NCBI GenBank assembly: GCA_001780775.1 | Contig: MFIO01000028.1 | Span: 1 to 34,803 of the forward strand | Reading direction: 5' to 3' | Length of the DNA: 34,803 bases | DNA from: Candidatus Giovannonibacteria bacterium RIFCSPLOWO2_12_FULL_43_11c | Lineage (GTDB): Bacteria > Patescibacteriota > Minisyncoccia > JACPKW01 > UBA11713 | Shown: positions 541 through 19,316 of the stretch, one piece after another | Layout: every line of letters begins with the position of its first letter | Numbering within the stretch: the first letter of the stretch is position 1 | Notes under the pieces: model-generated | Databases searched by the model: none | Told to the model about the DNA's origin: nothing | What the model saw: the letters and a program-made list of their open reading frames with translations, nothing else | Made by a program: the position numbers and the translations under genes

Positions 541-1563
541 ATGCAGCTTTTTAATGCAATTAAGGTTAGTGAGGAATTTTTAGGAGTGCTTCCCAAAAGA
601 GTTAGAGATGTCATTGAGCGCCGCTTTGGCATTGGAAAATCAAAGGATAGGAAGACTTTGGAAGCGATCGGGACATCATACGGGATAACTCGCGAGCGCG
701 TCAGGCAGATCGAAGCGCATGGTCTCAAAAAGCTAAATTCCAACAACTCTATTAAGGATAAAAAGGACGTTTTTGATGCGTTGAAATCCGAGCTTTTGCG
801 TCGCGGAGGCATTGTCGAGGAAGAAAAATTTCTGTCTTCGCTAGCAAAAACTCAGGAAGAAAAAAATAATATAAGGTTTCTTTTGACTTTAGACAATTAT
901 TTTAAGAGGAATAAGGAGGACGAAGAATTTTATGGGCGCTGGAGCGCGGACGAAAAATTGGCTTCCGCGTGCCATGAAACTTTGCGATTATTGCATAAGA
1001 ATCTCGAAGGGAAAGATCCCATGGAAGACGCGGAGATTAAGGCAAAGCTTGCGGAGATAGCCCAAACTAATTTTAGCCAAAATCTTGGACCAGATGCCCT
1101 TGAATCGTGGCTTTCTGTTTCAAAACTAGTTGCAAGAAACAAGCTAGGGGGCTGGGGCTTGGTTGATTCTCCTCATATCTCGCCAAGAGGGGTTCGGGAC
1201 CTCGCTTTTTTGGTGATGAAACAGCACGGATCGCCAATGCACTTTTCCGAAGTGACGCAGGCGATCAAGAAAAATCTTTCGGAGCCTGCGCACCTGCAAA
1301 CAGTGCACAACGAACTGATTAAAGATGATCGGTTTGTTTTGGTTGGGCGCGGTCTTTACGCGCTTCGCGAATGGGGCTACGAGCCAGGGACTGTCAAAGA
1401 CATAATAAAAAATATTCTTACTTCTTCCGGTCCATTGCCAAAAGAGAAGGTCATAGAAAAAGTTCTCAAAGAGCGCCACGTTAAAACAGCAACCATACTT
1501 ATAAATCTCCAGGATAAGCGCAATTTCAAATCTTTGGACGATGGGTCCATTACCCTCGTTTAA
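541..1563 (+). CDS. Sigma-70 region 4-like / HARE-HTH transcription regulator
   Basis: A 340-residue protein. Residues about 12-65 read as sigma-70 region 4: a helix ending in RRFG, then TLEAIGTSYGITRERVRQIEA, the classical helix-turn-helix that contacts the -35 element. Residues about 214-280 match the HARE-HTH winged helix (as in the RNA polymerase delta subunit), with the typical VHNELIKDDRFVLVGRGLYAL strand. A second winged-helix-like segment may follow to the C-terminus. Region 2, which melts the -10 element, is absent, so this is not a complete sigma factor; it more probably modulates RNA polymerase. There is no Shine-Dalgarno sequence, and the promoter at 499-527 would give an almost leaderless mRNA. 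Domain calls are firm; the exact role is inferred. Confidence 0.85.
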   Translation: MQLFNAIKVSEEFLGVLPKRVRDVIERRFGIGKSKDRKTLEAIGTSYGITRERVRQIEAHGLKKLNSNNSIKDKKDVFDALKSELLRRGGIVEEEKFLSSLAKTQEEKNNIRFLLTLDNYFKRNKEDEEFYGRWSADEKLASACHETLRLLHKNLEGKDPMEDAEIKAKLAEIAQTNFSQNLGPDALESWLSVSKLVARNKLGGWGLVDSPHISPRGVRDLAFLVMKQHGSPMHFSEVTQAIKKNLSEPAHLQTVHNELIKDDRFVLVGRGLYALREWGYEPGTVKDIIKNILTSSGPLPKEKVIEKVLKERHVKTATILINLQDKRNFKSLDDGSITLV

Positions 1564-3459: not shown

Positions 3460-4962
3460 TTGAGTAGAATGTCAAACGAATCAAAAGTTCAAATAATAAC
3501 TCATGCGCCTCCTCCTCCAGATTTACCAGTATATCAGCGAGTGGATCCGAAGGGCGTAAATTTTTTCGGACGCACGAATTATGTAGCGGCTCTTGAAGAG
3601 AAACGATTCATTTTTGGCATAAAAAGGGGGGACCGCAGGCGGCATATGTATATAGTAGGAAAGTCCGGAGTCGGAAAGTCAAAACTTTTGGAACTTTTAA
3701 TCAGGCAGGATATTGCTTACGGTCACGGCGTTTGCTTAATTGATCCCCACGGCGACGTTATTCAGGAGATTTTAAATTTTGTCCCAGAAAATAGAATTAA
3801 TGATGTCGTTCTGATCGATCCTTCGGACACGAAATTTCCTGTTTCGTTCAATCCACTAGATAACGTGCATCCCGATATGAAACACCAATTCACTCAAGGA
3901 CTGATTGAGGTTATGGAAAAACAATTCGGGGCGAACTGGACTCCTCGGCTTGAGCATGTATTCCGATTTACAACTCTTGCACTTTTGGATTACCCTGCGG
4001 CAACAATGCGCGGAATGATCTCTATGCTCACAGACCGCGAATACCGACAGCGCGTCGTTGATTATATAACAGATGACATGGTAAAGCGTTTCTGGGCTGT
4101 AGAATTCGCGGATTGGTCCGAGAAATTCGATACGGAAGCGATAATCCCGCTTGTTAACAAGTTGGGTCAGTTTTTATCCGACCCGCTTCTGCGGAATATC
4201 TTTGCTCAAAGAGAAAATAAAATTGACCTCGAGAAAATAATGAACGAAGGCAAGATTTTACTCATAAATCTTTCTAAGGGAAGGCTCGGCGAGGAAAACT
4301 CTAGTTTTTTTGGCTCTATGTTCATTACGAAAATCAAGCAGGCCGGCATGGCTCGCGCCTCGCTTCCTGAAAAAGAGCGCACCGATTTTTATTTATATGT
4401 TGATGAGTTTCATAATTTAGTCACAAATACTTTCGAGAATATATTTTCGGAGGCGAGAAAATACGGCTTATGTCTAATTGTCGCGCACCAATATATGTCC
4501 CAGTTGCTTCCGGCAGTTCAAGCGACCGTATTGGGAAATTCTGGCACTCTTGTGGTTTTCAGGATCGGAGGGGACGACGCGAAGAAACTGGAATCGGAAA
4601 TGACCCCGATTTTCAAGGCTAAAGACATGATCAATCTCGGCATGCAGGAGTTCTACATCAAAATGACGATCGACGGCAATACTTATGATCCTTTTTCTGC
4701 GGAGACGCTTAAAATAATGCCCGCGACGCACGGAAGTTTTAAAGAAAAAATATTAAAATTTTCCCGCGATACCTACGCGATTCCGGTTGATGAAGTGAAA
4801 AGAAAACTCGAAGAAGAAGAAAAAGAGCTTTTATTTGGAAAAAAGGGCAAGCCAGCCGAAGGGGAAGAAAAGCCCGACGCAAGTCTGCCTGCGGCGGACA
4901 AGCAGACGGGCCTGCCTAGCTCCAAAAGTGCTGGCGGGGAGGGCCCATCCCCGATGGTTTAA
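3460..4962 (+). CDS. VirD4/TraD-like P-loop ATPase (copy 1)
   Basis: A 500-residue protein of the VirD4/TraG coupling-protein type: Walker A VGKSGVGKS near residues 66-74, an IDPHGD motif shortly after, Walker B FYLYVDEFHNL near 309-319, and a TraM-recognition-type C-terminal ATPase half. No membrane segment is present, so anchoring may come from the two preceding membrane proteins. It closely resembles the second copy at 8597-10468 but lacks its zinc ribbon. The start is uncertain: TTG at 3460 has GGAG nine bases upstream, whereas ATG at 3469 has only a weak GAG. The last 40 residues are low-complexity (Pro/Ala/Gly/Lys) and contain an imperfect palindrome at 4883-4907. No relaxase or VirB genes are nearby, so a DNA-pumping or translocation role is inferred only from the family. 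Confidence 0.85.
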   Translation: MSRMSNESKVQIITHAPPPPDLPVYQRVDPKGVNFFGRTNYVAALEEKRFIFGIKRGDRRRHMYIVGKSGVGKSKLLELLIRQDIAYGHGVCLIDPHGDVIQEILNFVPENRINDVVLIDPSDTKFPVSFNPLDNVHPDMKHQFTQGLIEVMEKQFGANWTPRLEHVFRFTTLALLDYPAATMRGMISMLTDREYRQRVVDYITDDMVKRFWAVEFADWSEKFDTEAIIPLVNKLGQFLSDPLLRNIFAQRENKIDLEKIMNEGKILLINLSKGRLGEENSSFFGSMFITKIKQAGMARASLPEKERTDFYLYVDEFHNLVTNTFENIFSEARKYGLCLIVAHQYMSQLLPAVQATVLGNSGTLVVFRIGGDDAKKLESEMTPIFKAKDMINLGMQEFYIKMTIDGNTYDPFSAETLKIMPATHGSFKEKILKFSRDTYAIPVDEVKRKLEEEEKELLFGKKGKPAEGEEKPDASLPAADKQTGLPSSKSAGGEGPSPMV

Positions 4963-4966
4963 AAGC

Positions 4967-4993
4967 CCACTTGGAAGCCGAGCTTCCAAGTGG
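4967..4993. repeat. Left REP-like hairpin of the RAYT element
   Basis: A perfect 12-bp stem: CCACTTGGAAGC (4967-4978) pairs with 4982-4993 around a three-base CGA loop. The core (4969-4991) is identical to 5646-5668 on the other side of the transposase gene. No T-run follows, so it does not look like a terminator. Confidence 0.9.
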
Positions 4994-5005
4994 TATCATT
5001 TGCTC

Positions 5006-5641
5006 ATGCGAAAGACAGTTTTTGTTGATAGAGAATTTTATCATCTATACAATCGTGGCGTAGATAAACGCGATATATTTTTAGATAAGTGGGACTTTGA
5101 GCGGTTTTTTACGAGTATTGAAGAATTTAATGCCATAGATCCCATTGGCAGTATTTATGAAAACTCTTTTAGTAAAGAAAAACATCGTGCTAAGAAGTTA
5201 GTTGATTTTATTGCGTATTGTGTAAATCCGAATCACTATCATTTTATTCTTAGACAGTTGGTTGAAAAAGGAATCGAGAAGTTTATGCATAGGTTTGGAA
5301 CTGGATATACTAAATATTTTAATAACAAATACAAACGAGATGGAGTTTTATTTCAAGGAAAATTTAAAGCAGTCCGTATTGATACAAATGAATATTTGCT
5401 ACACCTGAGTTCTTATGTGAATTTAAATGATAGAGTTCATAAACTCGGAAGCCGGTTTTCCAAATCGAGCTGGAGAGAATATCTAAATGGGGGAGAGGGA
5501 TTATGTAAGAAAAATTTAATTTTGAAACAATTCAAAGAAACTTTAGAATACAAAGAATTTGCGGAGAGTTCGCTCAAAGATATTCTTGAACGGAAGAAGC
5601 TACACAAGGAAATGGAGAACTTGTTACTCGAAGCTAATTAA
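5006..5641 (+). CDS. REP-associated tyrosine transposase (Y1_Tnp, HUH family)
   Basis: A 211-residue single-strand transposase. The N-terminus (FVDREFYHLYNRGVDKRDIF) and the HUH metal-binding motif in CVNPNHYHFIL (HYH, about residues 76-78) are diagnostic of Y1 transposases; the catalytic tyrosine is probably in FGTGYTKYFNNKY, followed by DGVLFQGKFKAVRI, which is typical of RAYTs. The reading frame extends upstream through the hairpin, but the ATG at 5006 gives the standard N-terminus and lies 12 bases after the left hairpin. There is no Shine-Dalgarno sequence, so expression may be low. The protein appears intact. Members of this family cut and join single-stranded DNA at REP hairpins. Confidence 0.92.
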   Translation: MRKTVFVDREFYHLYNRGVDKRDIFLDKWDFERFFTSIEEFNAIDPIGSIYENSFSKEKHRAKKLVDFIAYCVNPNHYHFILRQLVEKGIEKFMHRFGTGYTKYFNNKYKRDGVLFQGKFKAVRIDTNEYLLHLSSYVNLNDRVHKLGSRFSKSSWREYLNGGEGLCKKNLILKQFKETLEYKEFAESSLKDILERKKLHKEMENLLLEAN

Positions 5642-5718: not shown

Positions 5719-5747
5719 AAAAGGCCGAATGTGAAGTTCGTCCTTTT
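5719..5747 (-). terminator. Intrinsic terminator, mainly for the minus-strand membrane protein gene
   Basis: AAAAGG (5719-5724) pairs with CCTTTT (5742-5747) and CGAA (5726-5729) with TTCG (5737-5740), with one mismatch and a seven-base loop. Read on the minus strand, the hairpin is followed by a strong TTTTTTAATTC tract. The stem begins at the last base of the minus-strand stop codon (TGA, 5747-5749). It may also stop plus-strand read-through from the transposase gene. Confidence 0.7.
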
Positions 5748-6355
5748 CATTGTGCACCGATTTTACTTAGCATGAGTATCAAGATAATTGAAACCATCAC
5801 CAATGCTCTTAAAGCATATATCGTGGCCAACAAATCTTTTTTTCTCATCGCGACGGCAACCGAAAGAATGCCAGCTAGCCATATGCCTCCCCACATTATG
5901 AATGACTCCTCGTTGGTATTGGCGTACCAAAGTTTGGAGAAAGTTGGGAAATATGCGATGAATAGAATAAACTGGGAAATTAAATTTGTCGTGAAATGGT
6001 TTCTCTTGATCAGCCAGATAACGATCATAACTAGAGAGAGGGAAACACAAATCTTGTCCGTTGTGCTGATTGGGAATATGCTCCAACCGCGCGTAGCTAC
6101 AATCGCTATAACTATAGAGGTTACAATGAACGCGTCGCAAAGGTTCATAATATTATCAGACAGGTTCCGGCCATTTATCTGTGCCTTGTTTTCTCTCTCG
6201 AATTTATAGCTGGCCAGGCTTACGACTACGGCAACAAAAAAAAGAAACCATGTTGCGAATGACCCAACAGGTTCACCGCGATAGATAAGACATATGTAAT
6301 ATATGCCACATCCAATCATCAGCGATGCTGCGAGTAATTTCAGGATTTTATCCAC
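5747..6355 (-). CDS. Seven-helix membrane protein of unknown function
   Basis: A 202-residue protein made almost wholly of hydrophobic helices; I count about seven (roughly residues 5-24, 33-51, 72-89, 99-116, 121-138, 149-168, 176-195) with short charged loops such as YKFERENKAQ. A TWxLF-type segment in helix 2 (SFATWFLFF) recalls small seven-helix PQ-loop-like proteins, but I cannot assign a family. I chose GTG at 6353-6355 because AGGAGG lies seven bases upstream; longer reading through 6448 has no ribosome site. It is monocistronic, with its own promoter (6393-6421) and terminator. Confidence 0.75.
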   Translation of the reverse strand: MDKILKLLAASLMIGCGIYYICLIYRGEPVGSFATWFLFFVAVVVSLASYKFERENKAQINGRNLSDNIMNLCDAFIVTSIVIAIVATRGWSIFPISTTDKICVSLSLVMIVIWLIKRNHFTTNLISQFILFIAYFPTFSKLWYANTNEESFIMWGGIWLAGILSVAVAMRKKDLLATIYALRALVMVSIILILMLSKIGAQ

Positions 6356-6392
6356 AAACTCACCTCCTAAATTAATTAAGGAAATTTGACTC

Positions 6393-6421
6393 AATCTAGC
6401 ATATTTTCTGGAAATAATCAA
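6393..6421 (-). promoter_or_regulatory. Promoter of the seven-helix membrane protein gene
   Basis: On the minus strand TTGATT (6416-6421), a 17-base spacer and TAGATT (6393-6398), with TGC immediately upstream of the -10 as in extended -10 promoters. The leader would be about 30 bases and ends in AGGAGGTGAG before the GTG start. Confidence 0.6.
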
Positions 6422-6432
6422 TAATAGTGTAT

Positions 6433-8226
6433 ATGAATTCTGAAACAAAGAAGTGCCAAAATTGTAAACAAAACTTTACCATTGAACCTGACGATTTTAA
6501 GTTTTATGAAAAAATCTCCGTCCCGCCGCCAACCTGGTGCCCGGAATGCCAGTTGATGCGCCGCCTTTCTTTCAGAAACGAACGGATGCTGTATCGAAGG
6601 AACGAATCTTTAGAAGGACATGAGATAATCTCTATTTTTTCCGCGGATAAGCCCCTTACGGTCTACGCTCAGGAATATTGGCAAGGAGATAGATGGGATC
6701 CCATGCGATCCGCCCGGGATTATGACTTCTCGCGGCCCTTTTTTGAGCAACTCGGAACACTACTAAAAGAAGTTCCATGGCAGTCGCTTATGAATTGGAA
6801 TAATGTCAACAGCGATTATTGCAATATGACTACCGACAACAAAAATTGTTATTTGGTTTTTGGCGGAGATTTTAATGAAGACTGCGCGTACTCGACATTC
6901 AATTTTTATAGTAGAAATGTATATGACACGTACTGGGTTAACAAATGCGAACTATGCTATGAAGATATCGACGCTACAAACTCGTATAAGGTATTTTTCA
7001 GTCAATATTTTCGAGACAGTACCGACTCGATTTTTATTTATGACGGCGCGAATCTGAATAATTGCATCGGATGCGTGAATTTACGCAACAAATCGTATGC
7101 AATTTTTAATGAACAGTTTTCAAAAGAAGATTATTTAAAAAAGTTCGCGGAATTTGATTTCGGCAGCTACAAAAAATTAATTGAATTTCAGGAGAAATTT
7201 GCGCAATTCAAGTTGGAATTTCCTCGGCGATATGCCGAGATCGTCAAAGCGCCCGGATCGACCGGCAATAACATTTACAACGCAAAGAAAGCAATCAATT
7301 GCTTTGATATCGATAATGCCGAAGATTTGAAAAATGTTTTTCTTGCCGGATGGGGGCTCAAGGACGCAAGAAATTGCAATCATCTGGGGCATAAATCCGA
7401 GCTGGTCTACGATTCGGTTGCCATTTTTTCAAATACAAGCAGAATTAAGCATTCGTGGATTACCTCAGCATCCCATGATATGACCTACTGTTTCAATTGC
7501 CGGGGATCTAATAATTTATTCGGTTGCGTTGGAATAAAAAACAAAAGCTATTGTATTTTTAATAAGCAGTACTCAAAAGAAGAATACGAGGATTTGGTTC
7601 CCAAAATCATCCAGCAGATGAACGCAATACCTTATGTAGATAAAACGGGGAAAGTTTATAAGTATGGAGAATTCATTCCGTCAGAGTTAAGCCTTTTCGC
7701 GTATAACGAAACGGTTGCTCAAGAGTACTTCCCATTGACCAAGGAACAAGCAATCAATCAAGGCTACTCATGGAAAGACCCTGAACCCAGAAACTACCAA
7801 ATCACTCTCAAGACAGAAGACATGCCAGACCATATAAAGGACGTTAAAAATAACATTCTAGATCAGATCATCCAATGCGCTCACAATATTGGGACATCCG
7901 ATGTCCAGAATTGTAACGAGCAATGCACCGAAGCATACCGCATTATTCCTCAAGAGTTAGATTTCTTGAGAAAGATGAATTTACCTCTCCCTCGTTTATG
8001 CCCCAACTGCAGACATTACTCTAGAATCAAACAGAGAAACCCACTTAAGCTATGGCATAGGAAATGCCAATGTGCTGGATCTAAATCAGAGAATCAAGTC
8101 TATGCTAATACTATCGCTCATGAACACGGCGAGAATCATTGTGAAAATAGTTTTGAGACTACATATGCTCCTGAAAGGTCGGAAATTATTTATTGCGAAA
8201 AATGCTATCTTAGGGAGGTGGTATAA
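6433..8226 (+). CDS. Cys-rich multi-zinc/solenoid protein, copy 1 (most complete)
   Basis: A 597-residue member of a large uncharacterised Patescibacteria family (sometimes labelled 'CaiB/BaiF family' in databases, a name its sequence does not support). Module A: C8, C11, C36, C39 (CX2C-X24-CX2C with FYEKISVPPP), like the zf-trcl zinc ribbon. Then a relic ribbon (SIFSADKPLTVYAQEYW) without cysteines. Residues about 120-390 are two halves of short repeating Asn/Cys/Tyr units suggestive of a beta-solenoid, each closed by a signature (IGCVNLRNKSYAIFNEQ near 211; FGCVGIKNKSYCIFNKQ near 362). A second module A' follows (AYRIIPQELDFL...LCPNCR) with its cysteines kept, then a ribbon with a CQC and a His-rich loop (HEHGENHC) ending YCEKCYLREVV. 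GTG at 6427 is an alternative start; neither has a Shine-Dalgarno sequence. No signal peptide; probably cytoplasmic. Confidence 0.8.
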   Translation: MNSETKKCQNCKQNFTIEPDDFKFYEKISVPPPTWCPECQLMRRLSFRNERMLYRRNESLEGHEIISIFSADKPLTVYAQEYWQGDRWDPMRSARDYDFSRPFFEQLGTLLKEVPWQSLMNWNNVNSDYCNMTTDNKNCYLVFGGDFNEDCAYSTFNFYSRNVYDTYWVNKCELCYEDIDATNSYKVFFSQYFRDSTDSIFIYDGANLNNCIGCVNLRNKSYAIFNEQFSKEDYLKKFAEFDFGSYKKLIEFQEKFAQFKLEFPRRYAEIVKAPGSTGNNIYNAKKAINCFDIDNAEDLKNVFLAGWGLKDARNCNHLGHKSELVYDSVAIFSNTSRIKHSWITSASHDMTYCFNCRGSNNLFGCVGIKNKSYCIFNKQYSKEEYEDLVPKIIQQMNAIPYVDKTGKVYKYGEFIPSELSLFAYNETVAQEYFPLTKEQAINQGYSWKDPEPRNYQITLKTEDMPDHIKDVKNNILDQIIQCAHNIGTSDVQNCNEQCTEAYRIIPQELDFLRKMNLPLPRLCPNCRHYSRIKQRNPLKLWHRKCQCAGSKSENQVYANTIAHEHGENHCENSFETTYAPERSEIIYCEKCYLREVV

Positions 8227-8256: not shown

Positions 8257-8562
8257 ATGGTCTTTGTATATATAACTTGCGCCTCCCAGGAGGAGGCAAA
8301 AAAACTTGGGAAAATTCTTCTCGAGAAGAAGGGCGCTGGATGCGTGAATATTTTTCCGGTTCTATCAATGTATCCCGAGAATGGATCGATTAAAGAAGCG
8401 GGGGAATACGTTTTGATCGTGAAAACCATTGATTCTAAGGTGCAGGACGTCGAAGATATAGTCAGGAAAAATCATTCGTATAAAGTGCCGTTTATCGGGA
8501 CTATTTCGCTTACTCGATTGAACCGCGAATATAAAGAATGGCTTACTGGGGCGATTGCGTAG
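8257..8562 (+). CDS. cutA: CutA-family divalent-ion tolerance protein
   Basis: A 101-residue protein with the length and layout of CutA1: an N-terminal FVYITCASQEEAKKLGK strand-helix, then GAGCVNIFPVLSMY, the VLIVKT strand, and the HSYKVPFIG segment corresponding to the conserved H-x-Y-x-V-P motif, ending in EYKEWL. CutA forms a very stable ferredoxin-like trimer in the cytoplasm; its link to copper or other metal tolerance is established mainly in E. coli and its molecular job remains unclear. The gene starts 30 bases after the Cys-rich protein and has no Shine-Dalgarno sequence. Confidence 0.93.
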   Translation: MVFVYITCASQEEAKKLGKILLEKKGAGCVNIFPVLSMYPENGSIKEAGEYVLIVKTIDSKVQDVEDIVRKNHSYKVPFIGTISLTRLNREYKEWLTGAIA

Positions 8563-8596: not shown

Positions 8597-10468
8597 ATGG
8601 CGGAAACGCAAACAACAGAGCAGGAGAAAGTCGTATATTTCGCAAAAACTAACTTCCGGGGCTCGGATAGAGTTTTTGGCATAAAAAAACGCGACCGGCG
8701 CCAGCATTATTACGTTGTCGGAAAAACAGGGACGGGAAAGTCCGAGCTTTTAAAAAATTTGATTTTGCAGGATATAAACAATGGTGAGGGCGTAGGCGTG
8801 GTTGATCCGCACGGCGAGCTTGTCGAAGATGTTTTGAGAAAAATACCTGCGGCAAGAATAAACGACGTGATTTATTTCAATCCTTCGGACATGGATTTCC
8901 CGATTGGTTTTAACGTGCTTGAAGTCCCAAATCCTTTATATAAACATTTAGTCGTGTCGGACTTAATGGCGATTTTTACGAAGATTTGGGCGAATGTCTG
9001 GTCCGCGCGAATGGAATATATTCTGCAGAACTGCATTTTGGCCTTGCTTGATACTCCCGGGACAACTCTCTTGGGCATCCCGAGAATTCTAGTGGACAAA
9101 AATTATCGCGAACGCATTGTCAGGAATATCAAAGATCCAGTTGTGCGGTCATTTTGGACGCACGAATACGAAACTTGGCGCGATCAATTCAGGAACGAAG
9201 CTATTGTTCCTATTCAAAACAAAGTCGGGCAGTTTTTGAACACGCCATTTGTGCGCAATATCGTCGGTCAGCCCAAGAGCACTCTTAACATCCAGGATGT
9301 AATGAATTCCAGCAAGATTCTTTTGGTGAATGTTTCAAAAGGAAGGATGGGTGAGGACAACGCCGCATTATTGGGCGCCATGATTATAACGAAGCTGCAA
9401 TTGGCTGCGATGGAAAGAGTGAGGATTGCTGAAGAAGAGCGGAAGGATTTTTATCTTTACATAGACGAATTTCAAAACTTCGCGACGGATTCGTTTGCTT
9501 CAATTCTCTCGGAGGCGAGAAAGTATCGCCTGAATTTGATTATAGCGCATCAATATATCGGCCAACTTATCTCGGACACGTCAACCAAGGTGCGGGACGC
9601 GATTTTCGGAAACGTCGGGACAATGTTGGTATTTAGAGTCGGTGCGGCGGACGCGGAGGCTCTAGAGGCGGAGTTCGAGCCGGAATTTGTCATTCAAGAT
9701 ATTTGTAATCTTCCAAACTACAACGTTTATTTGAAACTGATGGTCAACGGTATTACCTCGCGGCCTTTTTCCGCGACTACTCTCCCGCCGATGCGCTGGG
9801 GAGATACGGAGGACCATGGCGAGAAAATTATCAAAGTTTCGAGGGAGAGGTACGGAATGGACCGAAAAGAAGTCGAGTCGCGAATAGAAAAATGGGCGTC
9901 TTCTTTATTTGAAAACGAACCCGAGGATGACGGTCCCAAAGAGAAGTTCAAAACTCGATGCTGGATTTGCGGCAAGGAAGTTAACGTTCGGTTTAAACCT
10001 GATGACGTCAGGCCGATCTATTGCTCGGACGATCTAAAAAAAGTTGAAGGGGGGGAGATTGCTCCGGCACAGAAGCGAAAACCCATCGGCGGAGGAGGAA
10101 GAGGAGGAGATAAATATTCAGATTCCCTTTCTAATTTGGGAATAGAATTTGAAGCAGAGAATAAAAGCGAAAAAAGACAGGCCGAGCGACCGCCAGAAAG
10201 AACATTTAGACCTTCTCCGGAGAAAATGGTGGACTCTCAAGCTGATAGGCGCCAACCCGTGAGCGCTTCGGCGCCTTCGCTCAAAGAAGGGCAATTTGTC
10301 TTGCGACAGGATAAGACGCCGTTTAAATCAATTTCGCTTTCGGAACTTAAATCAAGAGGGTCAACTAATAGGGAAAATGTTAAAAGAGGTCCGGATCTTG
10401 AGGGATTGAGGAATCTTTTGAAGGAAACTGTGAATTCGAAAGATAATGAGCCAGAGAAACATTCTTAA
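8597..10468 (+). CDS. VirD4/TraD-like P-loop ATPase with zinc-ribbon tail (copy 2)
   Basis: A 623-residue coupling-protein-type ATPase: Walker A VGKTGTGKS (about 41-49), VDPHGE, Walker B FYLYIDEFQNF (about 284-294) and an IIAHQYIGQL sensor-like strand. After the ATPase core comes a zinc-ribbon-like module, CWIC (455-458) and YCSDD (C476), in which the fourth ligand position is Asp instead of Cys. The last 120 residues are disordered and rich in Gly, Arg, Ser and Pro. The core is colinear with the ATPase at 3460-4962, so the two are paralogues. No membrane segment is present. It overlaps the next gene by 23 bases. DNA or protein translocation at the envelope is inferred from the family only; no other secretion components are in the window. 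Confidence 0.87.
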   Translation: MAETQTTEQEKVVYFAKTNFRGSDRVFGIKKRDRRQHYYVVGKTGTGKSELLKNLILQDINNGEGVGVVDPHGELVEDVLRKIPAARINDVIYFNPSDMDFPIGFNVLEVPNPLYKHLVVSDLMAIFTKIWANVWSARMEYILQNCILALLDTPGTTLLGIPRILVDKNYRERIVRNIKDPVVRSFWTHEYETWRDQFRNEAIVPIQNKVGQFLNTPFVRNIVGQPKSTLNIQDVMNSSKILLVNVSKGRMGEDNAALLGAMIITKLQLAAMERVRIAEEERKDFYLYIDEFQNFATDSFASILSEARKYRLNLIIAHQYIGQLISDTSTKVRDAIFGNVGTMLVFRVGAADAEALEAEFEPEFVIQDICNLPNYNVYLKLMVNGITSRPFSATTLPPMRWGDTEDHGEKIIKVSRERYGMDRKEVESRIEKWASSLFENEPEDDGPKEKFKTRCWICGKEVNVRFKPDDVRPIYCSDDLKKVEGGEIAPAQKRKPIGGGGRGGDKYSDSLSNLGIEFEAENKSEKRQAERPPERTFRPSPEKMVDSQADRRQPVSASAPSLKEGQFVLRQDKTPFKSISLSELKSRGSTNRENVKRGPDLEGLRNLLKETVNSKDNEPEKHS

Positions 10469-10877: not shown

Positions 10878-10906
10878 AAAGGCCTTATTTATTAAGCGTT
10901 TTTAGC
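10873..10906. terminator. Bidirectional terminator containing both stop codons
   Basis: GCTAAAAA (10873-10880) pairs perfectly with TTTTTAGC (10899-10906), with a partial inner CTT/AAG pairing. The plus-strand stop TAA (10875-10877) lies in one arm and the minus-strand stop TAA (10902-10904) in the other. The A/T arms supply a U-run to either transcript. Confidence 0.65.
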
Positions 10907-12014
10907 TTTCATAAAGTTTGTAAGTCTTTTCGCGCATGTGAGAGATTGAGAAATTATTCTTGACTTTTTCTCGTGCGTTTTTCCCGAGTTTTTTGGCGCG
11001 TTTGTGATTTTCTATGAATTTATCGAGTGTTAGCTGAAGCATTTTATGATTTTCTGGTTGCACAAGGACCCCAGTTTTATCAGATTCTATTATGTCAAAA
11101 TTTCCACCGACAGCCGATGCGATAATTGGAAGCTCGGCCAGCGCGGCTTCTAGGAGAGCGTAAGCGAGCCCTTCTTTTCTGGAGGGAAAGACGAAAATAT
11201 CAAACGCCTTTAGATACCGGTAAGCCTCGGGAAGATTTTCCACTATTATAATTTTTTCGTGGGAAATTTCCTCTCTGTGCGGACTTTCGCCGCCTGCGAT
11301 TAACGCCAATGTTATATGAGAATGTTTATTGAATAATGGGAGGACAGCTTTTAAGAGAATATCCCAGCCTTTGTTGCGGACCCATTCGCCAACCGTCCCA
11401 ATAACAAACTCTTTTTTTCCACCGAAGATTTTTTGCTGTGCTTCGCCCCTTTTTAAAAATTTAATTTCTTCGGCAGCTATACCGTTTGGTATCAAAACAA
11501 GTTTTCTCTGCGGAGCTATTTTATATCGCAGGGCCGAATTATAATCAAAAGTCGTGATGCAGATCACCTTGTCGTAAAACATGGCCGATATCTTCGATGC
11601 AAATCTGATTAAAGATAAATGGAATTTCGGGCGTGATTCGTGGAACGCCCAGCCGTGCGCGGTGAACATCATCTGGAGTTTTTGCCAGGAGAGCTTATAC
11701 AAAAATCCGGCAGCTCCGCAAACCACAGCGGCTTTAGTTGAGTTTACATGAATAGTGTCTGGTCGGACTTTCCAGAGGATGGCGAGAACTTCAAAAAAAC
11801 TTAAAATATCGCTGATCACATTTATTTTCCGCTCGAAATGCGATACCTCGATATATTTAAGCCCAAGAGATTCAACTTTTTCTTTCAATGCGCCCTGCCC
11901 CCCGCTCGCGATAAAAATATCGTATTTATTTTTGTCGAGACCGGAGGCCAGATCAAGAACATATTTTGCCGCACCCCCCCAATGTGACTTCGTGATAAAA
12001 TAGACAATTTTCAT
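10902..12014 (-). CDS. GT4-family glycosyltransferase
   Basis: A 370-residue GT-B fold enzyme that should transfer a sugar from a nucleotide donor to a surface glycan intermediate at the inner face of the membrane. The N-terminus has the acceptor-side glycine loop (ITKSHWGGAAKYVLDLA); VLIPNGI precedes the C-terminal Rossmann domain (IGTVGEWVRNKGWD); the donor-binding E-x7-E is in SRKEGLAYALLEAALAELPIIAS. It is the only glycosyltransferase on the minus strand and is divergent from the main cluster with only 27 bases between start codons. Sugar specificity cannot be read from the sequence. Confidence 0.9.
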   Translation of the reverse strand: MKIVYFITKSHWGGAAKYVLDLASGLDKNKYDIFIASGGQGALKEKVESLGLKYIEVSHFERKINVISDILSFFEVLAILWKVRPDTIHVNSTKAAVVCGAAGFLYKLSWQKLQMMFTAHGWAFHESRPKFHLSLIRFASKISAMFYDKVICITTFDYNSALRYKIAPQRKLVLIPNGIAAEEIKFLKRGEAQQKIFGGKKEFVIGTVGEWVRNKGWDILLKAVLPLFNKHSHITLALIAGGESPHREEISHEKIIIVENLPEAYRYLKAFDIFVFPSRKEGLAYALLEAALAELPIIASAVGGNFDIIESDKTGVLVQPENHKMLQLTLDKFIENHKRAKKLGKNAREKVKNNFSISHMREKTYKLYES

Positions 12015-13100: not shown

Positions 13101-14095
13101 AAATATTGATTGCGACTGGAATTTATCCTCCCGACGTCGGCGGCCCAGCGACGTATAGCGCTTTATTGATTAAAGAATTTCCCAAGCGAGGGGTTCAGGC
13201 GAAAATCTTGAGTTTCGGCTGGGTCCGCGGATATCCGAAAATACTACGGCATTTTATATATTTTCTTAGAGTTATAAAGTTAGGGCGTGATTGCGATATT
13301 ATCTATGCCCAGGATCCAGTCAGTGTCGGGCTACCCGCAATTTTGGCTTCGAAACTTTTAGGGAAAAAATTTGTAATTAAAATCGTCGGCGATTACGCCT
13401 GGGAACAAGGAATTCAAAGATTTGGAGTCAAGGAACTGCTTGATGAATTTTTGGATAAAAAATACGGATTTGCCGTCGAGTTTCTAAAAAAAATTGAGAG
13501 ATATGTCGCGAGAAATTCGAATGCCGTAATTGTCCCCAGCAATTATTTGGCGCAAGTTTTAGGGAAATGGGGGGTTGGCTTGGGCAAGATTAGTGTAATT
13601 TATAATACTGTTTTTGTGCCTGCCTCGCCGCGAAATAGAGCGAAAGAAAATATTCTCTTTTCCGCCGGACGCAATGTTCCGTGGAAAGGATTTGCGATAC
13701 TCTTGGAGCTTAACATTCCCAACGCCAAAATAATAACAGGGAATTTCCCAAAAGAAGAATATGAGAAATTTCTTTCTTCATGCGCGATATTTCTTTTGAA
13801 CACGGGATACGAGGGGTTTTCGCACCAGATTTTGGAAGCAATGTCTCTCGGATTGCCGATTATCACAACCAATGCCGGCGGGAACAAGGAAATAGTCGAA
13901 AATGAAAAAAACGCGCTCGTGGTAGAATATAATAATAAAGAAGCGTGGACTCACGCGATAACGCGGCTGTTGGGCGATGAAAACCTGCAGAAAAAATTAT
14001 CCGAAGGTGCTAGAGCTACAGCCCAAAAATTTTTACAAAAAGACATGGTCGGAGAAACAATTAAAGTTTTAGAGAATATTTTGCATGCCAAGTAA
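13097..14095 (+). CDS. GT4-family glycosyltransferase
   Basis: A 332-residue GT-B enzyme with GIYPPDVGGPATYSALL at the N-terminus, AVIVPSNYLAQVL in the middle, FSAGRNVPWKGF opening the donor domain and E-x7-E in TGYEGFSHQILEAMSLGLPIITTNAGG. Start and stop overlap both neighbours: ATGA with the upstream glycosyltransferase and 11 bases with the first tandem Cys-rich gene at 14085. The coupling ties the Cys-rich array to glycan synthesis, at least in expression. Confidence 0.9.
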   Translation: MKILIATGIYPPDVGGPATYSALLIKEFPKRGVQAKILSFGWVRGYPKILRHFIYFLRVIKLGRDCDIIYAQDPVSVGLPAILASKLLGKKFVIKIVGDYAWEQGIQRFGVKELLDEFLDKKYGFAVEFLKKIERYVARNSNAVIVPSNYLAQVLGKWGVGLGKISVIYNTVFVPASPRNRAKENILFSAGRNVPWKGFAILLELNIPNAKIITGNFPKEEYEKFLSSCAIFLLNTGYEGFSHQILEAMSLGLPIITTNAGGNKEIVENEKNALVVEYNNKEAWTHAITRLLGDENLQKKLSEGARATAQKFLQKDMVGETIKVLENILHAK

Positions 14096-15842
14096 AACCC
14101 CAAAGTTTGATGCCGCACTGGATGAAATCTTGAAAGATTTAAAACCGCACACGAGAAAATGCAAGCAGTGTGCAGGCGATTTTGAAATTTTCAAGGAGGA
14201 TATCGAGTTTTACCATAAGCTCCGAGTTCCACCGCCGAGTGAATGTCCGACTTGCCGTATGCAAAAAAGAATGGCCATGATGGCGAATATTCTGCGATTT
14301 TATAAAAAGAAATGCGAGGCGCATCCGGATGAATTTCCATTTGCCCAAATTGATGAAATATCACCGCATAAAATTTTTGATACCAATTACTGGTGGAATC
14401 CTGATGCATGGGACGCAAAAGAATTTGGCAGGATGTACAATCCCGATCAAAGTTTTATGGAGCAGCTTGATTCTCTGTTAAAAGATGCCCCGCATATGGC
14501 TATTGCTAGATATAACAAGCAGATGGTGAACAGCGACTACACAGCGGACAGTATGTATTGTAAAAATGTTTATATTTCTTCAACGATTGGATTATGTGAG
14601 GACGTACACTATGGCGTATGGGCGGTATATGCGAAAGATTCGATGGATCTTTTGCGAGTGAATCAAATAGAGAATTGCTACGATGCAGTAGATTCAGCGC
14701 ATTGTTACAATTCTCAGTACATTCAAAACTGCGAGAATTGTATTGATTCATATTTTCTTTTTGACTGTCATAATTGCCAGGAGTGTTTTGGATGCGTGAA
14801 CCTAAGAAATAAAAAATATTGCTTTTTTAATGAACAATTAAGCAGGGAAGAATATAAAAAACGATTGTCTGAGATCAATATTGGGAGCAGAAAGACTAGG
14901 GATGAATATAGGAAAAAGTTTCAGGAATTTATCAAACAGAGGGCTATTTACAAAGCAATAACAATGAAACGTGCCCCAAATTCAATCGGAGACCAATTGA
15001 ACGGATGTAAAAATTGTTTTCAGGTTTTTAATGCCGAAAGCGTGAAATTTATCCTGACATTTTATAAAAATGCGAATGTGCGCTGGAGCCAGGATATAGT
15101 CGGTGCCAACGATTGTATGGATTTGACTATCTTTGGACCGGGAGAACTCTGCTACAACGTTATTGAGGGAGCTCAGGCGAACAAGGCCATTGCTTCATAT
15201 TTTGTTTCACAGAGCATTGAGCTCGAATATTGTTTTGAATGTTCTGATTGCAAATATTGCTTTGGTTGTTCTGGGTTGAAGAAAAAACAATACTATATTT
15301 TGAATCAGCCATATTCTGAAAGTGAATACTGGAAAAAGGTAGACGAGATTAAAACAAAAATGCTTCGCGAGGGAACATACGGGGAATTTCTGCGGCTCGA
15401 GAATTCATTTTTTTATTATAACGATACCTATGCACAGATGTCCGTACCGCTTGATGAAAATTCTGCCAGGACCCTTGGCGCTAAGTGGCGCGTGGGCGAG
15501 CCAATAATGCATTCTGATTTGGAGAAAATAAACGGAGATCAATTGCCCGATGATATCGCTGATGTCAAAGACGATATACTTAAGAAAGCAATAGTTTGCA
15601 GTGAGACAGGAAGGTTATTTCAAATTACTCAATGGGAATTGAATTTCTATCGGAAGCACGGAATACCCGCGCCTGATAAGCATTATCAAGTGCGGCTTTT
15701 CGAGAGATTTCAAAGAAAAAATCCTTATCGCCTTTGGAAATATCCCTGCTCGAATTGCGGCCAAGAAATGCACACTTCATACGACCCGGCAAAAAAATTA
15801 AAGGTCTATTGCGAGGCATGCTACCTTAAAGAAGTGGTTTAA
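14085..15842 (+). CDS. Cys-rich multi-zinc/solenoid protein, copy 2 (tandem array, first)
   Basis: A 585-residue paralogue of the 6433-8226 protein. It adds an N-terminal lead (MPSKTPKFDAALDEI) shared with copies 3 and 4. Module A is intact (C26, C29, C54, C57; FYHKLRVPPP). The relic ribbon B keeps only one Cys (KKKCEAHPDEF). Solenoid-like repeats with DS.NCY units carry the two closing signatures (FGCVNLRNKKYCFFNEQ near 234; FGCSGLKKKQYYILNQP near 392). Module A' (IVCSETGRLFQITQWELNFY) has lost its CPxC, while the terminal ribbon B' is intact (C555, C558, C576, C579). No signal peptide or membrane segment. It begins inside the 3' end of a glycosyltransferase gene. Function unknown. Confidence 0.8.
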   Translation: MPSKTPKFDAALDEILKDLKPHTRKCKQCAGDFEIFKEDIEFYHKLRVPPPSECPTCRMQKRMAMMANILRFYKKKCEAHPDEFPFAQIDEISPHKIFDTNYWWNPDAWDAKEFGRMYNPDQSFMEQLDSLLKDAPHMAIARYNKQMVNSDYTADSMYCKNVYISSTIGLCEDVHYGVWAVYAKDSMDLLRVNQIENCYDAVDSAHCYNSQYIQNCENCIDSYFLFDCHNCQECFGCVNLRNKKYCFFNEQLSREEYKKRLSEINIGSRKTRDEYRKKFQEFIKQRAIYKAITMKRAPNSIGDQLNGCKNCFQVFNAESVKFILTFYKNANVRWSQDIVGANDCMDLTIFGPGELCYNVIEGAQANKAIASYFVSQSIELEYCFECSDCKYCFGCSGLKKKQYYILNQPYSESEYWKKVDEIKTKMLREGTYGEFLRLENSFFYYNDTYAQMSVPLDENSARTLGAKWRVGEPIMHSDLEKINGDQLPDDIADVKDDILKKAIVCSETGRLFQITQWELNFYRKHGIPAPDKHYQVRLFERFQRKNPYRLWKYPCSNCGQEMHTSYDPAKKLKVYCEACYLKEVV

Positions 15843-15843
15843 T

Positions 15844-17580
15844 ATGCCAAGCAAAACTCCAAAATTTGATGCCGCACTGGATGCGATTTTAGAAAATCTA
15901 AAACCGCACACGCGGAAATGCAAACAGTGCGCGGGCGATTTTGAAATTTTCAAAGAGGATATCGAGTTTTATCACAAACTTCACGTCCCCCCTCCGCAAA
16001 ATTGTCCCGATTGCCGGAAACAGCAACGCTTGGCCTTTTCGAATAATACTATTTTTTACGTTAGGAGTTGCGATGTTTCAGGCCATAAAGAAAGGCTTAT
16101 ATCTCTCTTCCCCACGGGAATCAATTGGAAAGTATATGATAATCATTACTGGTGGTCGGAAGATTGGGACCCTATGTCATTCGGAAGTAATTATGATTTA
16201 GGCAAATCGTTCTTTAATCAATTCCATGTCTTTAATAGAAAGCTTCCATTGACACAGTCTAATCGCGATCCCAAAAGCATTGGGTCTGAATATACTGCCT
16301 ATGGAGTGGAATTGAAAGACTGTTATTACGTTTTTGGCGGCACGCGTAGCGAAAATATTCTTTACGGAAATTGGCCAATTTTTGCTCGAGATTCTATCGA
16401 CGTTCTTATTGCATTCCAATCGGAACTTTGTTATGAGATTGTCTCATCTTTTGGAAATTATAACTGCAACTTTATTTATTTTTCAGATAACTGTTTAGAT
16501 TCTTTATTTCTTTACGATTGTAAGAATTGCACCCATTGTTTCGGAGGGGTAAATCTTCGCAATAAACAATACTACTTTTTTAATGAGCCATATACAAAAG
16601 AGGAATATGAGAAGAAGATGTCGGAAATAAATTTGGGGTCGCGGAAAGAGTTTCTCTGCTGGTATAAAAAATATTTCGATTTTTTAAATGACAAGATAAA
16701 GCGCGCGACCAGGAATGAAAAAACCGTAAATTCTATCGGAACCTTTTTACGTAACAGTAAAAATTGTTTTATGTGTTTTTGGGCTGAAGGGGAGAATCTT
16801 CGATACGTCGATTATGCCACTGCTTTAAAAGATTCTATGGATACAAGCATTGCAGGCGGAAATATGCAAACCCAAAACGAACTTTTATATCAATCAAGTT
16901 ACAGCGGGACGTATAATATTAAATGTTCGAGCTTGGTGCGATCAAGTCATGATGTTGAATATTCAATGAATTGCATAAATCTTGAAAATTGTTTCGGGTG
17001 TGTGGGATTGCGCAATAAAAAATATTGCATATTTAACAAACAATATATGGAAGAAGAATATTGGAAGACGCTGGATGAGATAAAATCAAAAATGCTTGCC
17101 GATGGAGAATATGGCGAGTTTTTTCCAATTTCAATGAGTCCGTATCCTTATAATGCTTCATTGGCTCAATTTGAATTTCCCTTAACCAAAGAAGGAGTTG
17201 AGAAAATAGGCGGATATTGGGCTGAAAGCGTGGTTTCGCTTGAGGGTATTGACCCAAAAAATATCTTGAAAGGAGATCAAATTCCAGATGATATTAAAAA
17301 TGTTGGGGACGATATTTTAGATAAGGTCTTTATTTGTGAAGTTACAGGAAAGCCGTTTCGAATAATAAAACAGGAATTGGAATTTTATCGCCGCAAGAAT
17401 CTTCCCTTGCCGACAAAGCATCCTTATCAGAGAATTATGGAACGCTGGGCCATGAAAGAGCCATTTAAATTATGGAAATACCCATGCTCGAATTGCGGGC
17501 AGGAAATGCATACTTCCTACAATCCCGCCAAGAAATTAAAGGTCTATTGCGAGAGTTGTTATTTAAAGGAAGTGATATGA
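15844..17580 (+). CDS. Cys-rich multi-zinc/solenoid protein, copy 3 (tandem array, second)
   Basis: A 578-residue paralogue, one base downstream of copy 2. Its first 51 residues match copy 2 at 47 positions, and DNA identity there is about 84% by hand count, mostly third-base changes; the terminal ribbon (C548, C551, C569, C572) is nearly identical too. Module A is intact; relic ribbon B keeps one Cys (VRSCDVSGHKERL). The solenoid core is much more diverged, with signatures FGGVNLRNKQYYFFNEP (near 232) and FGCVGLRNKKYCIFNKQ (near 384). A' (FICEVTGKPFRIIKQELEFYRRKNLPLP) lost its second Cys pair. Its TGA overlaps the ATG of copy 4. Confidence 0.8.
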   Translation: MPSKTPKFDAALDAILENLKPHTRKCKQCAGDFEIFKEDIEFYHKLHVPPPQNCPDCRKQQRLAFSNNTIFYVRSCDVSGHKERLISLFPTGINWKVYDNHYWWSEDWDPMSFGSNYDLGKSFFNQFHVFNRKLPLTQSNRDPKSIGSEYTAYGVELKDCYYVFGGTRSENILYGNWPIFARDSIDVLIAFQSELCYEIVSSFGNYNCNFIYFSDNCLDSLFLYDCKNCTHCFGGVNLRNKQYYFFNEPYTKEEYEKKMSEINLGSRKEFLCWYKKYFDFLNDKIKRATRNEKTVNSIGTFLRNSKNCFMCFWAEGENLRYVDYATALKDSMDTSIAGGNMQTQNELLYQSSYSGTYNIKCSSLVRSSHDVEYSMNCINLENCFGCVGLRNKKYCIFNKQYMEEEYWKTLDEIKSKMLADGEYGEFFPISMSPYPYNASLAQFEFPLTKEGVEKIGGYWAESVVSLEGIDPKNILKGDQIPDDIKNVGDDILDKVFICEVTGKPFRIIKQELEFYRRKNLPLPTKHPYQRIMERWAMKEPFKLWKYPCSNCGQEMHTSYNPAKKLKVYCESCYLKEVI

Positions 17581-19316
17581 CCTCCAAAACCCCAAAATTT
17601 GATGCGGCGCTGGATGAATATTTTTCCAAGCTCGAACTTGATGAGAAAGGCGGACAGTGGAGAGTGTGCCGTTTTTCCGGCGAGAAATTTTATGTCCGCC
17701 CGGAGGATGTGGAATTTTATAAAAAAATGCGAGTGCCTTTGCCGACCTTGAGTCCAGGCGAACGATTTCGCTTGATGTTGGCTTCTTGGAATTCTTATTT
17801 TCTGTTTAATACCACTTCAGCATTTTCAGGGAAAAAGATAGTGACGCAATTTCCACCAAATACGCAATATAAGGTTTACGAACATCAGCACTGGTTTAGC
17901 GGAAATTGGGATGCGATTGAATATGGAACGGAATATAATTCAGGAAAGAATTTTTTTGACCAATTTAAAGAATTAAAATTGAGGGTTCCTCGTCCAAGCC
18001 TCTTTGTTGATAATACTAATGTGAATAGTGATTATACCAACGATTCAGTGTATTTGAAGGATTGCTACTTGGTATTTAACTCCAACGACAGTGAGAATTG
18101 TCACTACAGCATAGGTCTAGCCAGATCTAAGGATTGCTTTGACGTCTTCGATGTTTTTAGCTCAACTATATGCTATGAATGTTTCGAATCGTTCGAGCTA
18201 TATAATTGTTTTTTTGTTGAGTATTCAAAAAATTGTCTAGACAGCTATTTTCTCTATAATTGCCGTAATTGCATCAATTGTTTTGGTGGTATAAATCTGC
18301 GAAATAAAAAATATATTTTTTTTGGGGAACAACTAACGAAAGACGAATACGATAAAAAATTTTCAGAAATTAATTTAGGAGAAAGAGGTGTCTTAAAGCA
18401 ATTCATAAAAAAATTTGAGGAATTAAAAAGGGGCGCGATTCACAGGCCAAACCATAATGAAAAGTCTGTAAATGTGCATGGCGATTATATTACTAATTCA
18501 AAAAACTGCCACCATTCTTATTTTGCTGAAAAAAGCGAAAATTCTGCATATCTTATCGGCACACACGGAGCTAAAGAATGTTATGATGTCACTGCAATTG
18601 ATGCGGAATTTTGCAATTTTTGCGGGGGAGTAATAAGAGGGTATAGAATTTTATTTTCTGAGATGGTGGAAGACAGTCATGATTTGGAATATTCTAATCT
18701 CTGTTTTAATTGTCATGATATATTCGGATGCATAGGGCTTCGCAATAAATCATTTTGCATATTCAATAAACAATATGAAGAAGATGAATATTGGAAAATT
18801 GTCGATGGAATCAAGACAAAAATGCTGAAAGACGGGGAATATGGAGAATATTTTACCCCAAAACTTTCTCCTTTTCCATACAATATTTCCTTGATGGCGT
18901 CATACAAAGGGTATGATAATATTGATGTTGCGCAAAAATTGGGTTATTGGGTTGAAGACGTTAAAGAAGAAGCTGCCGAAATTGTCGGAGACATAATAGA
19001 TTCCGATCAAGTGCCAGAAAATATAAATGACACAAATTACGATATTTTAAATAAAATTATTTTTGACAGAAAAAACAATAAAAAATTTAGATACACTAAA
19101 GCCGAGCTGGATTTTCATAAAAAATACAATATAGCTTTGCCAATAGATCATTTTACGGCACGTTTAAAAGAGAAGCGCGATAAATTTGGTTCAATAGTTT
19201 TAGAATTTTTTGAAAGAGTTTGCCCCAAGTGCGGAAAAAACTTTGAAGCTGTTTATCGGCAGGAGGATCCGAGAATAGTTTATTGTGAATCGTGCTATCT
19301 TAAAGAAATTGTCTAG
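17577..19316 (+). CDS. Cys-rich solenoid protein, copy 4 (tandem array, third; N-terminal zinc site lost)
   Basis: A 579-residue paralogue. I chose the ATG at 17577, which forms ATGA with the stop of copy 3 and has AAAGGA six bases upstream; it also restores the TSKTPKFDAALDE lead of the other copies. In module A only VCRFSGEKF remains of the first pair, and the CPxC is replaced by SPGE, so no zinc can be held there, though FYKKMRVPLP persists. Relic B has no cysteines. The solenoid signatures are FGGINLRNKKYIFFGEQ (near 235) and FGCIGLRNKSFCIFNKQ (near 382). A' has lost its cysteines (FDRKNNKKFRYTKAELDFHKK); ribbon B' is intact (C549, C552, C570, C573). Confidence 0.8.
   Translation: MTSKTPKFDAALDEYFSKLELDEKGGQWRVCRFSGEKFYVRPEDVEFYKKMRVPLPTLSPGERFRLMLASWNSYFLFNTTSAFSGKKIVTQFPPNTQYKVYEHQHWFSGNWDAIEYGTEYNSGKNFFDQFKELKLRVPRPSLFVDNTNVNSDYTNDSVYLKDCYLVFNSNDSENCHYSIGLARSKDCFDVFDVFSSTICYECFESFELYNCFFVEYSKNCLDSYFLYNCRNCINCFGGINLRNKKYIFFGEQLTKDEYDKKFSEINLGERGVLKQFIKKFEELKRGAIHRPNHNEKSVNVHGDYITNSKNCHHSYFAEKSENSAYLIGTHGAKECYDVTAIDAEFCNFCGGVIRGYRILFSEMVEDSHDLEYSNLCFNCHDIFGCIGLRNKSFCIFNKQYEEDEYWKIVDGIKTKMLKDGEYGEYFTPKLSPFPYNISLMASYKGYDNIDVAQKLGYWVEDVKEEAAEIVGDIIDSDQVPENINDTNYDILNKIIFDRKNNKKFRYTKAELDFHKKYNIALPIDHFTARLKEKRDKFGSIVLEFFERVCPKCGKNFEAVYRQEDPRIVYCESCYLKEIV

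Follow-up and report, generated by a model that had tools for sequence, protein, structure and literature searches.

The window, a stretch of 34,803 nucleotides of contig MFIO01000028.1 from Candidatus Giovannonibacteria bacterium RIFCSPLOWO2_12_FULL_43_11c, carries four genes of one protein family, all of them intact ORFs on the plus strand (Table 1). Copy 1 runs where the sequence-only reading had placed it, from an ATG at 6433 to a stop codon ending at 8226, with an in-frame GTG at 6427 just upstream. Copies 2-4 are tightly packed: A single base separates copies 2 and 3, and copies 3 and 4 share an ATGA overlap; copy 4 also has an in-frame start upstream at 17472. These three genes, unlike copy 1, lie within an extended block of glycosyltransferase-like and related genes (window 10902-34693, assigned mostly by eye; 10902-12014 by domain match). 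A 233-aa hydrophobic ORF on the minus strand (5747-6448) is divergent from copy 1, and the starts of the two overlap. Two genes for TrwB/VirD4-like coupling ATPases lie to either side of copy 1, with an ORF bearing an IS200-type Y1 transposase domain (4835-5641) between ATPase 1 and copy 1, a CutA1 divalent-ion tolerance protein (8257-8562) between copy 1 and ATPase 2, and a Sigma70 region 4 and HARE-HTH protein (541-1563) upstream of the ATPase genes.

Table 1. Features of the window, with the residues at the four ligand columns of each zinc module
Feature	Position	Strand	Ligands A/B/A'/B'	Remarks
TrwB/VirD4-like coupling ATPase 1	3460..4962	+		frequent neighbour of the family
Copy 1	6433..8226	+	CCCC/EEAY/CCCC/CCCC	597 aa from ATG, 599 from GTG 6427; A, A', B' zinc sites intact, B lost
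Copy 1 module A	6448..6570	+		zf_Tbcl-like treble clef; C10, C13, C38, C41, numbered from 6427
Copy 1 module B	6574..6711	+		zf_Tbcl_2-like; ligands lost (E, E, A, Y)
Copy 1 solenoid half S1	6781..7164	+		includes closing IGC..LRNK..IFN motif
Copy 1 solenoid half S2	7261..7629	+		includes closing FGC..IKNK..IFN motif
Copy 1 linker L2	7630..7866	+		conserved, single-copy; model confidence among the highest in the protein
Copy 1 module A'	7870..8034	+		C484, C500, C525, C528; extra Cys at 496
Copy 1 module B'	8044..8223	+		C547, C572, C590, C593 (from 6427); insert with C549, H565, H567
TrwB/VirD4-like coupling ATPase 2	8597..10468	+		carries its own zf_Tbcl_2 (B-type) domain
Copy 2	14085..15842	+	CCCC/CHDY/CTHV/CCCC	585 aa; A and B' intact; solenoid model pLDDT 83.8, pTM 0.76
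Copy 3	15844..17580	+	CCCC/CSDY/CTHQ/CCCC	578 aa; A and B' intact; 75% identity to best match in another species of the genus
Copy 4	17577..19316	+	CSSE/SSEH/DNHA/CCCC	579 aa from ATG overlapping copy 3 stop; B' alone intact

All four proteins have the order A-B-S-S-A'-B' that the sequence-only reading had described, and so do 261 complete ORFs in the fetched loci (the loci overlap, and some ORFs are repeats). The closure of each solenoid half by an FGC..LRNK..IFN motif likewise holds, with the variants IGC, FGG, IKNK, LKKK, FFN, and FFG. Missing from that earlier scheme is a linker of ~85 residues from S2 to A' (about 400-480 in copy 1), which is conserved, single-copy, and mostly well modelled.

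We quantified the homology between modules with profiles built from 235 distinct full-length homologues, four of them from the window. These were drawn from 331 matches by dropping incomplete, partial-coverage, and identical ORFs, the seeds having been found by patterns in A and B'. The family alignment was split into eight segments, and all 28 pairs were compared by profile-profile alignment. Only the cognate pairs match, which makes A homologous to A', B to B', and S1 to S2: A/A' with a probability of 99.3% (E = 6.8e-21), B/B' with 98.4% (E = 1e-14), and S1/S2 with 100% (E = 2.3e-38). None of the other 25 pairs is significant (probability ≤30.5%), and hhalign self-comparison of S1 and of S2 reported no internal repeat. 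The AlphaFold2 model of copy 1, computed from 125 of 191 proteins kept at <80% identity, has a mean pLDDT of 87.8 and a pTM of 0.91; A and A' are predicted with similar runs of strands and helices, and S2 is less well modelled than S1. Taking the alignments together with the predicted fold, we regard the A-B-S-S-A'-B' architecture as real.

The end modules match two known families to differing degrees. Against zf_Tbcl (PF13451; curated cut-off 24 bits), the A module of copy 3 scores 16.6 bits, and those of the other copies are unlisted in hmmscan; only two A modules of family members in the genus pass the cut-off, at 25.2 and 24.1 bits. For zf_Tbcl_2 (PF23477; cut-off 27 bits), B' of copies 3 and 2 reaches 30.4 and 29.8 bits in a genome search and 24.9 and 24.3 bits in hmmscan, where copy 4 has 14.7 bits and copy 1 is unlisted. 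Among the genes that encode a free AB pair, described below, four exceed the zf_Tbcl cut-off (L054, 33.6 bits; L173, 36.6; L181, 30.6; L056, 84.8).

The solenoid halves show a strong periodicity. In S1 (columns 126-233 of the family alignment), 2612 of the 2647 cysteines (98.7%) fall at one residue in three, the inward phase. Autocorrelation of cysteine peaks at a spacing of 3 and its multiples, that of hydropathy is strongest at 12, and short strands repeat every 12 residues in the copy 1 model. The model and the periodicity together predict coils of 12 residues with every third residue pointing inward. The solenoid region contains a median of 19 cysteines (range 9-33), and the core cysteines exchange with Ser, Leu, Val, and Ala across the family; judged by these exchanges, they look like small core residues. 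Two features of beetle antifreeze proteins were sought in the sequences. Cysteine covariation at offset 6, the spacing of the beetle disulfides (coil positions 2 and 8), is negative (mean phi -0.10), which in this sequence-based test speaks against beetle-type disulfides, and threonine makes up at most 6% of any S1 coil position, leaving no TxT ladder.

Searches with known models and structures place the solenoid loosely. Pfam-A and NCBIfam scans of the four copies found no model over it. The solenoid of copy 2, modelled alone from 105 sequences, was compared with solved structures by VIA-align: 1ezg aligns over 82 of 82 residues (Z 7.5, rmsd 2.3 Å) and is the only solved match covered end to end by the model, which also matches parts of Ag43-type helices with Z up to 7.9. 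Matches at Z < 8 may reflect only a common arrangement. Foldseek gave no match to a solved structure at E ≤ 0.001, the whole copy 1 model yielding poor left-handed-helix matches, and hmmsearch of solved structures returned three weak LIM-type matches to the zinc end (E of 0.27 or worse). In a viral structure library, the matches included mimivirus and poxvirus proteins.

For the zinc sites we scored four ligand columns per module in the 235 proteins. In the window, A has its two CxxC ligand pairs in copies 1-3 and not in copy 4 (CSSE), and B' has four cysteines in every copy. The site list of the sequence-only reading stands for copies 2-4 (the same set, A and B', in copies 2 and 3; B' alone in copy 4) and for the degenerate state of B in all four. 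It needs correction for copy 1, which keeps B' besides A and A'; this B' was probably overlooked owing to a 22-residue insertion that separates its first two conserved cysteines. Across the family, A is intact in 230 proteins, B in 89, A' in 189, and B' in 232. Loss of B affects the whole site: Four cysteines are present in 89 proteins, three in none, two in four, and one or none in 142.

The intact sites form a nested series that fits 228 of the 235 proteins: all four sites in 83, all except B in 104, A and B' in 36, and B' alone in five. The seven exceptions comprise four proteins with A+B+B', two with A+B+A', and one with A only. Within the series B is lost most often, then A', rarely A, and almost never B'; a tree from which the ligand columns were left out requires at least 19 changes for B, 12 for A', and three each for A and B'. 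Among members that lack both seed-search patterns, 99 of 101 fit the series. The proposal that the copies had lost their sites in a complementary manner is thus not borne out, and nested sets, recurrent losses, and copies that are not mutual nearest relatives give no support to subfunctional loss. None of the four copies has another of them as its nearest relative, and their site differences are therefore old lineage states. The B' insert brings a CxC + HxH pattern that 134 of the 235 proteins share, so gains of sites may have occurred as well.

The source genome (796,446 bases in 35 contigs) has 11 family members, which occupy ~2% of its DNA; two relatives in the genus have one and nine matches. 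Over 77 loci, some of which overlap, 127 adjacent family pairs are on the same strand and none on opposite strands. Recent tandem duplication of the copies is rejected by the tree: The nearest neighbour comes from the same genome for just nine of 205 proteins from multi-member genomes (shuffled mean 3.8, maximum 12). By this phylogenetic measure the paralogues are old. Copy 3 and its 75% identical counterpart in G002 have a dN/dS of about 0.056, near saturation, and copy 3 is, as far as its codons tell, under purifying selection. Family members with internal stops are listed in five loci (L006, L007, L019, L044, and L202), and some copies may therefore be dispensable.

The closest public relatives of copy 1 are in Candidatus Giovannonibacteria and other Parcubacteria-type lineages. 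A phylum search with copy 3, in which four matches per genome were scored, found a match in 25 of 286 genomes. Two loci with family arrays (L108 and L116) are on a record titled Burkholderiales, which is probably a mis-binned Patescibacteria contig. A tblastn search of plasmids and phages with copy 1 gave no match. A scan of viral contigs found one end-of-contig fragment with the S closing motif (L194:5772-5966); the other genes of that contig are T4-like by eye, and the fragment could be an assembly join. Our literature search, whose coverage misses most subscription papers, found nothing on this protein family. The four genes are old paralogues of one multicopy Patescibacteria family that is apparently undescribed.

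Alongside the fused proteins, we find the same modules in separate genes. In L054 a gene for AB lies beside one for S-S (AB|S-S), and in L173 and L174 an S-S gene is followed by a separate AB gene (S-S|AB). A third arrangement, S-S-AB|AB, is an operon conserved in five genomes of one family (G228, G286, G306, G308, and G292), in which a protein of 415-422 aa is followed by AB, the two genes being some ten bases apart or slightly overlapping. S-S-AB also occurs without an adjacent AB (L201; G066). S-S lacks an AB gene directly next to it in L203 and L204, and in L192 and L193 a single S follows an N-terminal region of unrelated sequence. The proteins with a single S, 230-240 aa long and with upstream genes alike by eye, are a possible one-lobe relative without AB modules. 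A gene resembling that at window 541-1563 (by eye) adjoins the AB|S-S genes of L054, and a search at order level around G196 recovered the AB|S-S arrangement in only one genome of 13. For both genes of the S-S-AB|AB operon, dN/dS is ~0.06, near saturation, between G286 and G228, so these split genes are not decaying fragments. Some splits within arrays (L069, L083, and L110) do look like recent breakage. The free AB proteins pass the Pfam cut-offs for zf_Tbcl, zf_Tbcl_2, or both.

Trees of the modules (88 columns for AB and 133 for S) have few supported forks and no secure root. In the AB tree of 88 modules, a branch with SH-aLRT 98 sets off all 40 N-terminal modules, and another with the same support sets off all 40 C-terminal ones. 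Neither fused clade includes any of the remaining eight, of which six are free AB modules and two form the ends of S-S-AB proteins; the general zf protein L056 sits on a long branch. S1 and S2 are mostly separate in the S tree, with six and two label changes, although that tree is poorly resolved. The most similar solenoid halves of all 332 S-S ORFs are those of L054 (score 292, against a median of 127.5).

The sequence-only reading took the pseudo-symmetry as the product of an ancient internal duplication, and part of that view survives: The paired modules are homologous, and each split is older than the radiation of the family. A single-duplication origin does not, because tandem duplication of A-B-S would give A-B-S-A-B-S and not A-B-S-S-A-B. 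The order seen in 261 complete ORFs, together with the free AB, S-S, and single-S genes, speaks against one internal tandem duplication, and at least two events are needed, a duplication of S and the addition of AB at two ends. The free AB modules outside both fused clades, the split genes, and the halves of L054 therefore favour S duplication followed by AB fusion. On this scenario, S would first have duplicated to S-S, and free AB modules, which are still separate genes beside S-S in some genomes, would then have fused to both ends. The pseudo-symmetry would thus reflect two AB modules serving one S-S rod and not the duplication of one long unit. We consider the anatomy of a two-lobed, zinc-capped solenoid and its stepwise origin by fusion, taken jointly, to be a likely account.

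Two other histories were weighed against stepwise fusion. That one ancient duplication was followed by copies sharing out their zinc sites accords with the homologous partner that every module has in the other half, and with the single divergence of N- and C-terminal modules before the radiation; the module order, the existence of free AB, S-S, and single-S genes, and the nesting (not complementarity) of site sets in 228 of 235 proteins make it a quite improbable one. Fission, in which the fused form would have come first and the split genes would be later breakages that kept their function, gains from the prevalence of fused forms, by far the commonest, from the three array splits that resemble broken fused genes (L069, L083, and L110), and from the lack of a root in the AB tree. 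We nevertheless think it unlikely, since the free AB modules belong to neither of the fused clades (support 98 for each) and match the general zf_Tbcl and zf_Tbcl_2 families better than fused ones do, and since the most similar solenoid halves belong to a split form.

Among the neighbours of family genes, coupling ATPases stand out. We scanned 124 of 195 candidate neighbouring proteins (taken in order of proximity, to a maximum of 900 aa, with one 20-aa piece excluded), and TrwB_AAD_bind was the commonest family, in 21 of the 124. Homologues of the two ATPases of the window occur in the fetched flanks of 28 out of 77 loci, or about 26 of 59 genomes (the grouping is approximate); the fetched flanks of the other 49 loci contain none. 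There are just two PF10412 matches in the source genome, so by our arithmetic only a few percent of loci would be expected to have one by chance. Every PF23477 match in the source genome and two relatives is either ATPase 2 or a member of the family. A coupling ATPase is present in 282 of 286 phylum genomes and a match to copy 3 in only 25, from which it follows that the ATPase can do without the family. No domain of a type IV secretion system (T4SS) family turned up when the four copies were run through hmmscan. The accessible text of a 2025 study of the phylum (PMC12102498) counts 5,713 VirD4 homologues across 2,918 Patescibacteria genomes, with only 148 located near virB4, and does not settle what they do; it also describes the T4SS of Patescibacteria as apparently specialised for something other than conjugation.

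From the predicted fold, each protein is probably a cytosolic binding scaffold. The scaffold would be a two-lobed β-solenoid of 12-residue coils around a small, cysteine-rich core, with a treble-clef pair (A = zf_Tbcl, B = zf_Tbcl_2) that would cap the rod at each end and carry a conserved arginine/lysine-rich stretch. Variable solenoid faces might recognise different partners, and the AB ends might bind nucleic acid or protein, both of which we infer only weakly. The frequent ATPase neighbourhood and the B-type zinc module in ATPase 2 suggest work as an adaptor or substrate receptor for the ATPase. Because no Pfam or NCBIfam model covers the solenoid, homology lends this function no support, and binding scaffolds that act partly beside coupling ATPases are a tentative proposal, which we hold with low confidence. 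A more specific version is more doubtful still: that the kit of ten or more zinc-capped paralogues serves as exchangeable substrate receptors (or substrates) of orphan VirD4-like ATPases, the operons of S-S-AB and AB preserving a two-part ancestor in which separate AB proteins capped the rod from outside.

The same neighbourhood could be read otherwise, with the proteins as effectors that a Patescibacteria type IV system translocates and that have diversified against partner cells. Old, divergent paralogues in same-strand tandem arrays (127 pairs against none), often beside VirD4-like ATPase genes, would fit this reading, as would a T4SS specialised beyond conjugation (PMC12102498, accessible text). 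Purifying selection, orthologues kept across genera without lineage-specific bursts, and the absence of the family from most ATPase-bearing genomes speak against it, and from these gene patterns we rate it as doubtful as the receptor kit. A store of metal or redox equivalents, in which the cysteine-lined core and the zinc sites would hold metal ions or exchange disulfides, is suggested by the number of solenoid cysteines and by the CutA1 gene adjoining copy 1; it appears improbable given that those cysteines exchange with Ser, Leu, Val, and Ala, that cysteine pairs at offset 6 are not positively correlated, and that CutA1 is outside the 25 commonest neighbour families. Ice binding in the manner of the beetle protein would account for the shared coil length, inward pattern, and structural match to 1ezg. 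We give it hardly any credence: The missing TxT face speaks against an antifreeze function, there is no disulfide pattern, and the end modules have no counterpart in the beetle protein. A binding scaffold remains our preferred, if tentative, reading.

The split and partly fused forms found today show how a pseudo-symmetric multidomain protein can assemble without one internal duplication. Should the link to coupling ATPases be real, it could point to the reason for which almost all Patescibacteria genomes retain VirD4-like ATPases, mostly far from virB4 (PMC12102498, accessible text). The family is also an example of a multicopy group, with a solenoid outside the Pfam-A and NCBIfam models, that takes up about 2% of the DNA of this genome.

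Several known proteins resemble parts of the family. One of them is the CxxC-repeat protein CP21_192 of Campylobacter phage CP21 (L195:3935-4360, 141 aa), which has cysteine at every third residue and matches the S1 profile (E = 8.2e-9 at Z 10000), a match that is lost when the sequence is reversed. It consists of nearly pure CxxC repeats and has neither AB modules nor the closing motif; because of this low complexity, its homology to S1 is unsure. The viral structure library also yields a weak structural match from Campylobacter virus IBB35, a protein of 141 residues labelled 'Caib/baif family protein'. The name is apparently spurious there, and the same label is, we presume, associated with this family in Patescibacteria. 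The C-terminal β-helix domains of TBCC, RP2, and CAP are among the solved matches (5cya, Z 5.1; 2bx6, Z 4.5; 1kq5, Z 4.8), at low Z scores that tie with those of many other β-helices, and were not found by sequence search.

The Tenebrio molitor antifreeze protein (1EZG), a right-handed β-helix, shares its coil length and inward spacing with the family solenoid; proteins of this type have coils of 12 residues in which every third position points inward (PMC8038014, accessible text). The likeness is one of predicted structure only. The bacterial proteins differ in lacking the TxT ice face and any paired-cysteine signal, and in having two lobes with zinc modules at the ends. The VirD4/TrwB-like coupling ATPases of Patescibacteria, frequent gene neighbours, share with the family the B-type zinc module of ATPase 2, whereas neither an ATPase nor a T4SS domain is present in the family. 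The nearest relatives of the ends are the tandem zf_Tbcl (PF13451)/zf_Tbcl_2 (PF23477; TIGR04272) proteins, which have the same two modules in the same order as A-B; the free AB genes L054 and L056 score above the cut-offs of both models. Compared with these tandem proteins, the family carries the pair at both ends of a solenoid, with zinc sites lost in a nested series.
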